Assembly: GCA_016217665.1 (NCBI GenBank)
Contig: JACRHF010000047.1
Span: 1-39,828, forward strand
Length of the DNA: 39,828 bases
From: Nitrospirota bacterium
Lineage (GTDB): Bacteria; Nitrospirota; 9FT-COMBO-42-15; HDB-SIOI813
Direction: 5' to 3'
In this document: piece by piece, positions 10,211 to 14,561 of the stretch
Numbering within the stretch: position 1 is the first letter of the stretch
Layout of the letters: each line of letters starts with the position of its first letter
Notes under the pieces: generated by a model
The model's database searches: none
The model's input: only the letters and a program-made list of their open reading frames with translations
What the model was told of the DNA's origin: nothing
Program-made: the position numbers and the translations under genes

Positions 10211-10636
10211 TTACGTCCTTCCAAACACTGTCTTCCCTAAATTATAAACGAAGATATAGGCAGATACTGCATACAACAGTGCAGAACCTGTGAGCATAAA
10301 CTGCAACAGGGCGACCCCGTAGTAGGTCTTTGATAAGGGCCAGGAGATGATCAGGCCGATCAGGCCTGCATTCGAAAGGATGAGGTGCAGACCCGCCAGC
10401 CTGTCGCTGTAAAGAGGCCTCCCGCTAAACCGGGGCAATACGTGATAGGACACACCAAAAATCATCATAGAGACCCATCCTAACAGATTGGTGTGGGCGT
10501 GCATCGCCAAAAGCCATCCAATAGCATCCGGGAAGACCGTAAATAGCACCCCTATGGTCACGCCAATACAGAGATATATCAAGCCTGCCAGGATAAAAAG
10601 CCTTGTAACCTTGCTCAAATCATACCTCCAAAACAT
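10211..10636 (-). CDS. Small four-helix membrane protein related to haem-copper oxidase subunit I
   Basis: The 141-residue protein is hydrophobic, with four likely transmembrane helices (about residues 10-33, 39-62, 72-95 and 105-130). Helix two carries HAHTNLLGW (His46 and His48) followed by YHVLPRFSG. This resembles helix II of cbb3-type oxidase/NO-reductase subunit I, where a histidine binds low-spin haem. The other eight helices and the copper-site histidines are absent, so it cannot be a full oxidase. The listed ATG at 10636 directly abuts a terminator hairpin; a TTG at 10618 with GGAGG six bases upstream may be the real start. Haem binding is inference. Confidence 0.65.
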   Translation of the reverse strand: MFWRYDLSKVTRLFILAGLIYLCIGVTIGVLFTVFPDAIGWLLAMHAHTNLLGWVSMMIFGVSYHVLPRFSGRPLYSDRLAGLHLILSNAGLIGLIISWPLSKTYYGVALLQFMLTGSALLYAVSAYIFVYNLGKTVFGRT

Positions 10637-10705: not shown

Positions 10706-11062
10706 CTATTTCTTCAGAAGGGTCTTAAGGTATGCAATCACATCTTCAATATCGCCGGCGCTTAAGGTCTTGGCAAAACTGACCATAGCGGTTCCAGGCC
10801 TGCCTTCCAGAATAGACTTGTGAAGTCTGGCGTCATCGATACCCTTCATCTCATTCGCATCCGTGAAGTTCCTGGGTTTTGGGGTTAGTGGAGCTGCTGC
10901 CGGGCCCTTTCCATCCCCCTTGTCTCCATGGCATACGACACAGTTGGCCTTGAAGACCTTTTCACCCTTTGCGGCATCCCCTGCCCAGCTCTGGGAAGCA
11001 ACGAGTACGAAACCGAAGGCTACAGTCAGTGCAAGAATCGTAAATTTTCCCCCTTTTGACAT
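10706..11062 (-). CDS. Periplasmic monohaem cytochrome c (class I)
   Basis: The 118-residue protein starts with a signal peptide ending near SQSWA (residue 27). It has one haem-attachment motif, CVVCH at residues 41-45, and Met93 in GTAMVSF as the probable sixth ligand, so the mature protein is a small soluble electron carrier of about 91 residues. GDKGDGKGPAA after the haem site and the C-terminal helix IEDVIAYLKTLL are typical of small class I cytochromes. GGAG ends a few bases before the ATG. A strong promoter lies upstream at 11277-11305 and a terminator downstream, so it is probably a single-gene transcript. Partners are unknown. Confidence 0.9.
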   Translation of the reverse strand: MSKGGKFTILALTVAFGFVLVASQSWAGDAAKGEKVFKANCVVCHGDKGDGKGPAAAPLTPKPRNFTDANEMKGIDDARLHKSILEGRPGTAMVSFAKTLSAGDIEDVIAYLKTLLKK

Positions 11063-11369: not shown

Positions 11370-12710
11370 TTAAAAGTGAAACGTCAATGAGGCCTCAAGC
11401 TTGAGCTGGTCGTCAGGAGAAATGAAATTTCCAGAAGTATCTTCGCTTCCTAAAGCATCACCAGCGGCCAAATAGGCTACGCCAATGTTAGCTGAAAGGT
11501 TCTTGTCGACAACGCAGTTCGTGTTAGCATAGACCTCAACACCCAGGTCACTGGATTTTTTGGAAGTAAACACAACATCTTCAGAGGTTTGTGCCCAGAC
11601 CAGGCCGACCTCTGGGGTATGGGTCATTCCCGCACCCTTCATGGATGGCAGGGTTACAGCCGCTTTTATAGCCTGGAGGCCTTTACCACCGACCACATAT
11701 GAGGAAACCATGCTACCGCCTCCTATGCTTGTTACACCCTCATGGTTGTTAAAATCATCACGTACCAGGATGTTACTTGCCCGGAAGTCCCCATCTATCG
11801 TGTTGATGTTAACATCCTTACTGGTTGGACTTGTATCCTGGCCAGAAGCATAAAGGATAGCTGCATTTAGCCCAACGGGCCCTGCAGGCATGCTCCCAGA
11901 TAGAAGGAAATTGGAGCCCTTAAAGTTACCTGACTGAGTTGCTGAGAGTCCTACATCACCCCTAAAAATATCTACTTCAGCGGCTACATCTGCAGGTCCT
12001 ACTTTTCCATTACCTGTAAGCCCTATGACCTGCAACTTGGTATCATTTTGGGTGTTAGTGGGGTCCAGAGCGACACTAACACTATTTAATGCAGCAGCTA
12101 CCACAAAGAGGTCAGCACCAAAACCCGATCCGGCGATATCCTTTATACCTGCATTTACGGCAAAGGCTGTATCATCGCCTGCACCACGAGGTCCCGAGTT
12201 GGTAGCCGGTGCATCGTCTTCACCTAAGAGTAGATATCCCACCAACAGGTTTACAGGCCCTATCGGTGCAGCTACAGCAACAAGGTCAGCCGTATCATTC
12301 ATTACAAGTCCATTTCCAAGTTTTACCTCATAACGGCCGCCGATTACTGTTGCTGCAGGAAAATTGACCGCCAGATAAGCCTGACGTACCCCGACCAAGG
12401 CATAAGAATGTCCTGTATCATTTCCCAGCACAAGATTCCCAGTAGTATCCCCATCATTAGCCATTGAAGCGTTCAGAAAATCCACCTGCAATACCCCTGT
12501 GGTCATCCCCTGGCTGACTTTAGCATCCAGCCGGAACCTTGCATCCAGCCAGTTGGCATCACCGGTCTTGGTAAAATCTTGTGACTGGACATAATAGGCC
12601 CTTGCCCTCAGATCCCCGCCCACATCTATCTTGGCTGCAAAGGCTGGCATGGCATGCCAGACTGTGACTGCTATCGCTACTGCGATAATCGAATATATCC
12701 GCTTCTTCAT
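11370..12710 (-). CDS. Outer-membrane porin-like protein
   Basis: The 446-residue protein has a signal peptide (cleavage near AMPAFA, residue 25), no internal hydrophobic helices, many short alternating strands rich in glycine, aspartate and asparagine, and a C-terminal aromatic residue in LKLEASLTFHF, as expected for BAM-assembled barrels. The N-terminal GGDLRARAYYVQSQ and NWLDARFRLDAKV segments resemble alginate-export/porin-type families. No substrate can be assigned. AGGAGGAGAGG precedes the ATG. It has its own promoter (12894-12922) and terminator (11309-11346), so it is probably monocistronic and strongly expressed. Confidence 0.8.
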   Translation of the reverse strand: MKKRIYSIIAVAIAVTVWHAMPAFAAKIDVGGDLRARAYYVQSQDFTKTGDANWLDARFRLDAKVSQGMTTGVLQVDFLNASMANDGDTTGNLVLGNDTGHSYALVGVRQAYLAVNFPAATVIGGRYEVKLGNGLVMNDTADLVAVAAPIGPVNLLVGYLLLGEDDAPATNSGPRGAGDDTAFAVNAGIKDIAGSGFGADLFVVAAALNSVSVALDPTNTQNDTKLQVIGLTGNGKVGPADVAAEVDIFRGDVGLSATQSGNFKGSNFLLSGSMPAGPVGLNAAILYASGQDTSPTSKDVNINTIDGDFRASNILVRDDFNNHEGVTSIGGGSMVSSYVVGGKGLQAIKAAVTLPSMKGAGMTHTPEVGLVWAQTSEDVVFTSKKSSDLGVEVYANTNCVVDKNLSANIGVAYLAAGDALGSEDTSGNFISPDDQLKLEASLTFHF

Positions 12711-12943: not shown

Positions 12944-14113
12944 TTAAAAGACCAGTTGTATACCGAGCTGGAGTTTGTCTTCGTCCTTTTGAGACCCTTT
13001 GCCATCCTGCTTCACATATTCACCTATGAGACCTATATTGGGCGCTATATAGTAGTTTGCATCAAAGACATATTTATTGTCTTTCCTGGCGAACGTATCT
13101 TTATCCTCTATCTCATGGCGGATAGTGCATATCAGTTGAGGCCCGGCCGCAATCATCAATTCTGTTAAGAGATTGGCCTGGTTGATCCCGTCCACTCCAT
13201 CCACATTGGACTGGGTATAGTAGGCTAGGGTGAGGGTCACCGGACCAAAATTGAGATTAAGGTTTATATCGAGTTGCGTATGGTCTTCTTCCACCCCGAA
13301 ACCGGCCCCTGCCTTTGAGGTATAACCCCGAATCCCCAGGGTCTGCCCGGCGATACTATAGGTCCCCCATCCATAATAGGCATTGATATCATTACTGTTA
13401 TCTTTAAAAGACGGTGTCGTCTCCCCGGGTTTATCTTTTGTCAGCTCGTCATTGGCCACGCCGAAGGCATATCTGATGGCCGCAGATGGGGACTCCCCGT
13501 TAAACTCAAGACCATATTGAGTCCGTGTCACAGGGGATAAATAAGGTTCCAGGGTAAGCCTTCGCTTGTTGGCGAGATATAAAAATTCATTATAAAACTT
13601 TCCGATCCGGATATTGGCCCTCCCTTCGGAGAGGAGGTCATCAATGATGATGAAGGCAACCCCTGGCTCAATGCTGCCTTCCTCTTCTGACCCAAGGCTT
13701 ATGAAATAGGAAACCCGTGGCGCAAGGGTCCCGGAGCTGAAAAATTCCAGCTCATCCAGGAGAAAGATACTCTGACTTCCCTCTTCCCCCAACCATCCGT
13801 CACCTTTCCGGTCAACCATTTTATACTTAAAAACAGCCATTCCGGAGAGTGGAAAGGCCTTGTCCTGCCATATATAATCCCCCTCTTCCCCTTTAAGCCT
13901 GTACCCGTTTTGTTTGAAGGTCATGCCTGTAGGGTTGAGCCGCGGGAACTGGGCATGGCACATGGCGCAGGGGGTATTGTATTTTCTGGAAAAGTAGGGG
14001 ATGGCATCCGCCTTATCAGGCCAGAGATACCCCACGACAGTACACAAGAAGAAGACGATATAAAAACCGGTATGAATCTTCCAATTTCGCACTCTGCACT
14101 CCAGAATCCACAT
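12944..14113 (-). CDS. Fused monohaem cytochrome / outer-membrane beta-barrel protein (Cyc2-like architecture)
   Basis: The 389-residue product has a signal-peptide-like N-terminus ending near KADA (residue 37), one haem motif CAMCH at 49-53, and then about 320 residues of amphipathic strands ending in phenylalanine (LGIQLVF). The haem region follows the pattern A-x-P-x-F-S-R-K-Y...CxxCH..FP-x-LN-x-x-G..FK-x-x-GY, close to that of Cyc2-type cytochrome-porins, which move electrons across the outer membrane, as in Fe(II) oxidation. Function here is inferred from architecture. The ATG at 14113 lies four bases after rplI; a GTG at 14092 behind GGAG is an attractive alternative start. It probably shares the rplI transcript. 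Confidence 0.72.
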   Translation of the reverse strand: MWILECRVRNWKIHTGFYIVFFLCTVVGYLWPDKADAIPYFSRKYNTPCAMCHAQFPRLNPTGMTFKQNGYRLKGEEGDYIWQDKAFPLSGMAVFKYKMVDRKGDGWLGEEGSQSIFLLDELEFFSSGTLAPRVSYFISLGSEEEGSIEPGVAFIIIDDLLSEGRANIRIGKFYNEFLYLANKRRLTLEPYLSPVTRTQYGLEFNGESPSAAIRYAFGVANDELTKDKPGETTPSFKDNSNDINAYYGWGTYSIAGQTLGIRGYTSKAGAGFGVEEDHTQLDINLNLNFGPVTLTLAYYTQSNVDGVDGINQANLLTELMIAAGPQLICTIRHEIEDKDTFARKDNKYVFDANYYIAPNIGLIGEYVKQDGKGSQKDEDKLQLGIQLVF

Positions 14114-14117
14114 TCTT

Positions 14118-14561
14118 TTACGCCTTTACCACCCATACCTTGAGATCTGCGGTGACCTCCGGGTGTAATCTTACAGGCACATGAAACAGGCCAAGCTCTT
14201 TGATCGGTTTTTCAAGATGGATCTGTTTCTTATCTATGTTGAGACCCTCCGTCGCAAAGGCCTCAGCAATATCGGCAGAGGTGACAGAACCAAACATCTT
14301 TTCCCCTTCTCCTACCTGTCTGGAGATGGTGAGGGAGATCTCAGCAACCCTCTTTGAGAGTTCTTCTGCCTCGTGCAGACCCTGTTTCAGGACTTCGTCG
14401 GCCTTCTTTTTTTCCCGTTCCACCATCCGGATATTTTCTGTGGTGGTTTCTACGGCCTTTTTCGATGGGATGAGATAGTTCCTGCCATACCCATCCGCCA
14501 CATTTACGATGTCTCCCATCTTCCCCAACCCCTTGATCTCTTCTTTTAAGATGACCTTCAT
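14118..14561 (-). CDS. rplI: 50S ribosomal protein bL9
   Basis: The 147-residue protein has the standard bL9 two-domain layout. The N-terminal rRNA-binding domain starts MKVILKEEIKGLGKMG and has DGYGRNYLIPSKKA near residue 23; a long charged connecting helix follows; the C-terminal domain contains FGSVTSADIAEA and ends ADLKVWVV. GAAAGGATC precedes the ATG. The usual neighbours rpsF, ssb, rpsR and dnaB are not present; the gene instead precedes the cytochrome-porin. A strong promoter at 14592-14621 drives it. Confidence 0.97.
   Translation of the reverse strand: MKVILKEEIKGLGKMGDIVNVADGYGRNYLIPSKKAVETTTENIRMVEREKKKADEVLKQGLHEAEELSKRVAEISLTISRQVGEGEKMFGSVTSADIAEAFATEGLNIDKKQIHLEKPIKELGLFHVPVRLHPEVTADLKVWVVKA

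Follow-up and report, generated by a model that had tools for sequence, protein, structure and literature searches.

A Cyc2-like fused cytochrome-porin from a deep, uncharacterised branch of the family in a Nitrospirota genome

Our analysis of a 39,828-nucleotide stretch of DNA (hereafter, the window) from a 1.71-Mb, 77%-complete Nitrospirota MAG indicated that an open reading frame (ORF) on its minus strand encodes a fused cytochrome-porin (FCP) with the architecture of the Cyc2-like proteins, an assignment to which we give a probability of about 95%. The protein is a new member of a known family and belongs to a deep, uncharacterised branch of it. Pores of the FCP type with one haem are used by iron-oxidising bacteria for electron uptake from dissolved iron. 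The Cyc2 type has been defined by a signal peptide, one CXXCH, the motifs AXPXFAR[Q/K][T/Y] (upstream of the CXXCH) and PXL (downstream of it), a 16-strand porin, and a length of at least 365 aa (Keffer, PMC8406198). The window FCP spans 389 aa, or 382 aa when read from an alternative GTG start at codon 8, and it is the combination of motif, spacing, and predicted 16-strand barrel that identifies it as an FCP.

The sequence-only reading had placed the gene correctly, with the strand to be read as minus (Table 1). By inspection, the N-terminus shows a basic start and a hydrophobic stretch up to ADA/IP, with which the relatives align likewise, followed by AIPYFSRKYNTPCAMCHAQFPRLNPTGMTFKQNGYR and then by barrel-like sequence whose last residue is Phe. 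The first codons (window 14080-14113, minus strand) read MWILECRVRNWK, those of the sister genome G002 read MRIADCGLRNWR, and the gene of G003 begins otherwise, with MRKVIFIIF. Judging from these letters, the first codons look like a dispersed-repeat remnant joined to the signal peptide, and the real start may be internal.

Table 1. Positions in the window of the FCP, its parts, and its neighbours
Feature	Position	Strand	Basis
FCP ORF	12944..14113	-	homologues and predicted structure
N-terminal export signal, residues 1-37 (h-region FYIVFFLCTVVGYLW; ADA/IP)	14003..14113	-	sequence inspection
Haem-domain motif AIPYFSRKYNTPCAMCH (CXXCH, 13955-13969)	13955..14005	-	Cyc2 consensus (PMC8406198)
PXL motif (P57, L59); P is the 4th residue past the haem His	13937..13945	-	96 relatives
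16-strand beta-barrel, residues 89-388	12950..13849	-	AlphaFold2, Foldseek
rplI (ribosomal protein L9), 4 bases upstream of the FCP	14118..14561	-	TIGR00158, synteny
Haem-less porin, 446 aa, weak DESULF_POR1	11370..12710	-	profile match
Monohaem class I cytochrome c, candidate electron acceptor	10706..11062	-	PF00034
141-aa single-module COX1-like membrane protein	10211..10636	-	PF00115 positions 344-399

The haem domain, by far the best-conserved part of the protein among 96 relatives, carries a single CXXCH (residues 49-53). Three window ORFs of at least 90 aa contain a CXXCH, and the pattern A.P.F.R-(5)-C..CH-(3)-P.L occurs in the FCP only; neither a CXXCH nor the A.P.F.R...CH...P.L string arose in any of 2000 shuffles of the FCP protein. 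Six residues (R43, C49, C52, H53, P57, and G63) are invariant in the 96 relatives, P57 thus in 96/96, and L59 is found in 97% of them. Within the window clade, the alignment contains no His, Met, or Lys besides H53 that is invariant as a candidate for the sixth haem ligand. The resemblance of the haem region to Cyc2, as first noticed from the sequence, is borne out by the published consensus (PMC8406198): the window FCP reads AIPYFSRKY-NTP-CAMCH, with the spacing of both the ARQTG and the ARKY relatives, and its sole departure is the change of FAR to FSR. The same reading had taken the whole SR-KYN wording as a departure from AR-QTG, which is right for the Ser, whereas KY falls inside the consensus. 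Ser stands at the Ala position in 15 of the 96 aligned relatives (14/72 ARKY-side and 1/24 ARQTG-side rows), so FSR represents variation within the family rather than a boundary of it. The published sequence screen uses the Ala of FAR literally, and with its Ser the window FCP would not match it. Copies on the Leptospirillum side read FARKYN.

AlphaFold2, run on a 56-sequence alignment, modelled exactly 16 strands (mean pLDDT, 87.4; pTM, 0.86), with a small, partly helical domain holding the CXXCH ahead of the barrel. Foldseek matched this model in the PDB to the 16-strand porins Omp32, BpsOmp38, PorB, OmpF, and OprP (2o4v; TM, 0.61), the last being one of the structures used to model Cyc2 (PMC8406198). 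These results agree with the 16-strand barrel for which the sequence-only reading had proposed a structural check, and the assignment to a soluble or non-barrel family that it named as a possible refutation is countered by searches whose full-length FCP relatives come from Nitrospirota, Nitrospinota, and numerous further phyla. Its single CXXCH, barrel, and final Phe also stand; the barrel comprises about 300 residues rather than 320, and the CXXCH is not directly before it but about 35 residues ahead of the first strand, with the remaining haem domain in between. A sequence search of the PDB gave no match to the window FCP, nor did NCBIfam; in Pfam, Porin_4 alone matched, below the threshold and across the C-terminal part, and among 56 relatives the domain matches were confined to Porin_4 (5) and BBP2 (2), neither Pfam nor NCBIfam holding a model that detects the FCP family. 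Two haem-less porins of the same genome (L214:781-1842 and L215:522-1709) are matched by the FCP barrel profile and have no CXXCH; one of them scores slightly above the Porin_O_P cut-off, and a relationship of both to the barrel part of the FCP is possible.

A single-sequence search of a collection of genome contigs yielded no relative of the window FCP, whereas an alignment-based search found relatives. The source genome, which we covered through searches and individual stretches, has a second FCP on contig C44, which has the ARQTG wording and shares up to 50% identity with Gallionellaceae Cyc2. In a collection of plasmids, the window FCP had no match, and the C44 copy matched only distant Burkholderiales/Methylocystis FCPs. 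A 59-row tree placed the window clade on the side of Leptospirillum Cyt572, a branch with 100/99 support away from Gallionellaceae, with copies from Ca. Manganitrophus and Nitrospinota as its nearest neighbours (support, 95/71), and joined the C44 copy to Gallionellaceae. Gallionellaceae rows were treated as Cluster 1 (following PMC10734462), and the group f10 was labelled Leptospirillum from Cyt579 matches above the cut-off in 5/5 of its genomes and 0/14 controls. Approximately unbiased (AU) tests rejected joining the window clade to Cluster 1 (p=0.011) and to Leptospirillum Cyt572 alone (p=3.8e-8). Joining it to the ARKHN copies of the same family (L008, L009) was likewise rejected by AU test. 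Profile scores of the window FCP fell from 227.8 bits (Manganitrophus/Nitrospinota) to 150.5 (ARKY copies of other phyla) and 35.6 (Gallionellaceae), the last profile giving 478.5 bits to the C44 copy. Tree (100/99), AU test (p=0.011), and score (35.6 bits) thus rule out a Cluster 1 Cyc2, and the idea of a distinct branch, originally drawn from the SR-KYN wording, is upheld by the tree and the AU test rather than by that wording. From the position of Leptospirillum Cyt572, the Leptospirillum-side branch seems to correspond to "Cluster 3" of the literature; copies of that cluster have been called the most uncertain of the Cyc2 clusters in function, their difference from Cluster 1 being not known.

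By analogy with characterised relatives, we consider uptake of electrons from a soluble donor to be slightly better supported than its negation as the role of the window FCP, while Fe(II) specifically as that donor falls somewhat short of even odds. The exported 16-strand barrel would sit in the outer membrane, and its one covalent c-type haem, carried by the small N-terminal domain, should lie where the pore opens to the periplasm. A one-electron donor that is small and dissolved, probably Fe(II), would enter the pore and reduce the haem on the periplasmic side; electrons would then flow inward to a periplasmic monohaem cytochrome c, perhaps the product of the second gene downstream or a protein like it, and would end at an oxidase of the aa3 or cbb3 type or in the reduction of nitrite. 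We infer the outer-membrane location, haem position, inward direction, donor, and acceptor from known Cyc2 proteins. Fe(II) oxidation has been demonstrated for one member of each of three Cyc2 clusters (PMC8406198), and the Cyc2-type genes of Ca. Manganitrophus, the nearest relatives with a known context in the tree, have been proposed to serve metal lithotrophy (PMC9040806). The genome itself supports electron uptake from iron through its C44 Cyc2 and through contig C15, which encodes aa3-type CtaD/CoxB, cbb3-type CcoN/CcoO, and NirK, so that electrons leaving a cytochrome of the outer membrane would find an outlet. The oxidase genes of C15 (L189, L190) form a dense haem-copper oxidase cluster that also includes a fused cbb3-like protein of 973 aa, several divergent COX1s, b-type cytochromes, and NirK. 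Counting against electron uptake from iron, the window clade lies apart from Cluster 1 and is not the specific sister of Leptospirillum Cyt572, and many members of the FCP family occur in organisms without known iron oxidation (PMC7029218).

The distribution of the two FCP types bears on the foremost alternative, tentative in our estimation, that the window FCP is a functionally distinct paralogue: the C44 Cyc2 would serve dissolved Fe(II), and the window FCP, beside a Cluster 1-like copy in one cell, would serve another donor (Mn(II) or an organic Fe complex), potential, or direction. The source is a groundwater-type bacterium, and the nearest named relatives are groundwater Nitrospirota MAGs; close orthologues of the window FCP are present in G002 (67% identity) and G005 (62%, broken by Ns), G003 has the first residues of a window-type copy at a contig end, and more distant orthologues (40-41%) occur in a second Nitrospirota family (f2). 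Both types are found together in the source genome (G000), G002, and G003 (window type truncated at the contig end), which favours a division of roles, as do the grouping of the window copy with Ca. Manganitrophus (95/71) and the Zetaproteobacteria, which often pair Cluster 1 with Cluster 3 copies, their functional difference being not known (PMC7029218). However, Cyc2 homologues have already been reported to be widespread in the phylum, Manganitrophus included, and the Manganitrophaceae-specific candidate for Mn oxidation is PCC_1 rather than Cyc2 (PMC9040806). As further observations, two genes precede the Cluster 1-like Cyc2 gene on C44, one for a partial COX1-like protein of 460 aa and one for a probable DUF59/SufT-like protein of 99 aa, and this trio (L039:16688-19759) recurs in G001 and G002; in Ca. 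Manganitrophus GAC4 (L053, G062), FCP-type loci number at least three (1616960, 1599380, and 629065, the last with broken frames).

On the minus strand, the gene order is rplI, FCP, porin, cytochrome c, the 141-aa COX1-like gene, and folB. Three sister genera (G002, G005, and G003) share the junction of rplI and FCP, and the stop of one gene overlaps there with the start of the next as TAATG. Among ten genomes of the family, the 446-aa porin has an orthologue in G003 only (74%), and the monohaem cytochrome c is kept in eight. The COX1-like and cytochrome c pair lies near folB/lptD in most of these genomes, with or without an FCP. G004, G006, and G008 lack both FCP and porin, and there rplI is followed by cytochrome c, the COX1-like gene, and folB; the FCP has therefore been either gained at or lost from one fixed position, and its cytochrome c and COX1-like neighbours do not depend on it and are not its dedicated partners. 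A dedicated operon of the pair with the FCP was rejected for the same reason, as the pair sits identically without it. This weakens the proposal, made from the window's sequence, that cytochrome c and oxidase-like genes close to the FCP act as its partners; the "oxidase-like" gene is itself a 141-aa piece covering about 55 COX1 positions and not a full oxidase. Promoter-like sites lie between the neighbourhood genes at a frequency near chance, the f2 orthologues have no cytochrome gene within 2.5 kb, and linkage of FCP and cytochrome genes is weak overall (13/41 loci within 2.5 kb, judged against just 4 control windows). Taken together, the shared FCP-less interval, the promoter-like sites, and the f2 loci leave no dedicated acceptor shown.

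Linkage to rplI, which is not a respiratory operon, together with the match of the FCP barrel profile to the haem-less porins L214 and L215, could also be read as a porin plugged by haem that plays no part in energy metabolism, acting as a gated channel, a redox sensor, or a protection against metals or oxidants. We regard this as improbable, since conservation across 96 relatives is by far strongest in the haem domain and three members of the family are tested Fe(II) oxidases (PMC8406198). Poorest of all fares the reading that the protein is a cytochrome that is soluble or lacks a barrel, or else an ordinary porin in which a CXXCH arose by chance, to which the lone Porin_4 match, below threshold and limited to the C-terminal part, might point; it is contradicted by the 16-strand model and PDB porin matches, by haem residues invariant in 96 relatives, and by 0/2000 shuffles, and is highly improbable.

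As the FCP family has no Pfam or NCBIfam model, its members probably carry the label 'cytochrome C' or hypothetical in annotations, and electron uptake at the outer membrane through one haem is therefore likely under-recorded. For annotators, a Cyc2-like match of the window branch alone does not prove iron oxidation. The pairing of Cluster 1-like and window-type paralogues in one Nitrospirota lineage, some relatives of which have only one of them, offers a clean pair for comparing the two types; if the window clade is functionally separate, two single-haem outer-membrane conduits would divide labour in the same cells.

Compared with known systems, the FCPs of Ca. Manganitrophus (L053) and Nitrospinota (L054, L056) are closest, being alike in architecture, motif, and length, with about 30% full-length identity and the 95/71 grouping, but they have FAR where the window FCP has FSR, and their gene neighbourhood differs. 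Cyc2 of Cluster 1 (Gallionellaceae and Zetaproteobacteria, including the biochemically tested Cyc2PV-1) has in common the signal peptide, AxPxFxR...CXXCH...PxL, and the 16-strand barrel, although the Gallionellaceae copies mostly read ARQTG...CHxQHFP, unlike the window FCP. A potential of 208 mV is on record for Cyc2PV-1 (PMC8406198). Leptospirillum Cyt572, the Cluster 3 reference, shares the side of the tree (100/99), KYN, and haem-domain homology, yet it is about 550 aa long, long-branched, and not the sister of the window clade (p=3.8e-8). A porin-cytochrome complex of the MtrAB/MtoAB kind was rejected for the window FCP, given its 16 strands, one CXXCH, and single protein. MtrAB, MtoAB, and PioAB likewise pass electrons across the outer membrane by means of a barrel, but they do so as separate proteins, pairing a barrel of 26 strands with a decahaem cytochrome (PMC8406198), whereas the window FCP combines 16 strands and one haem in one protein.
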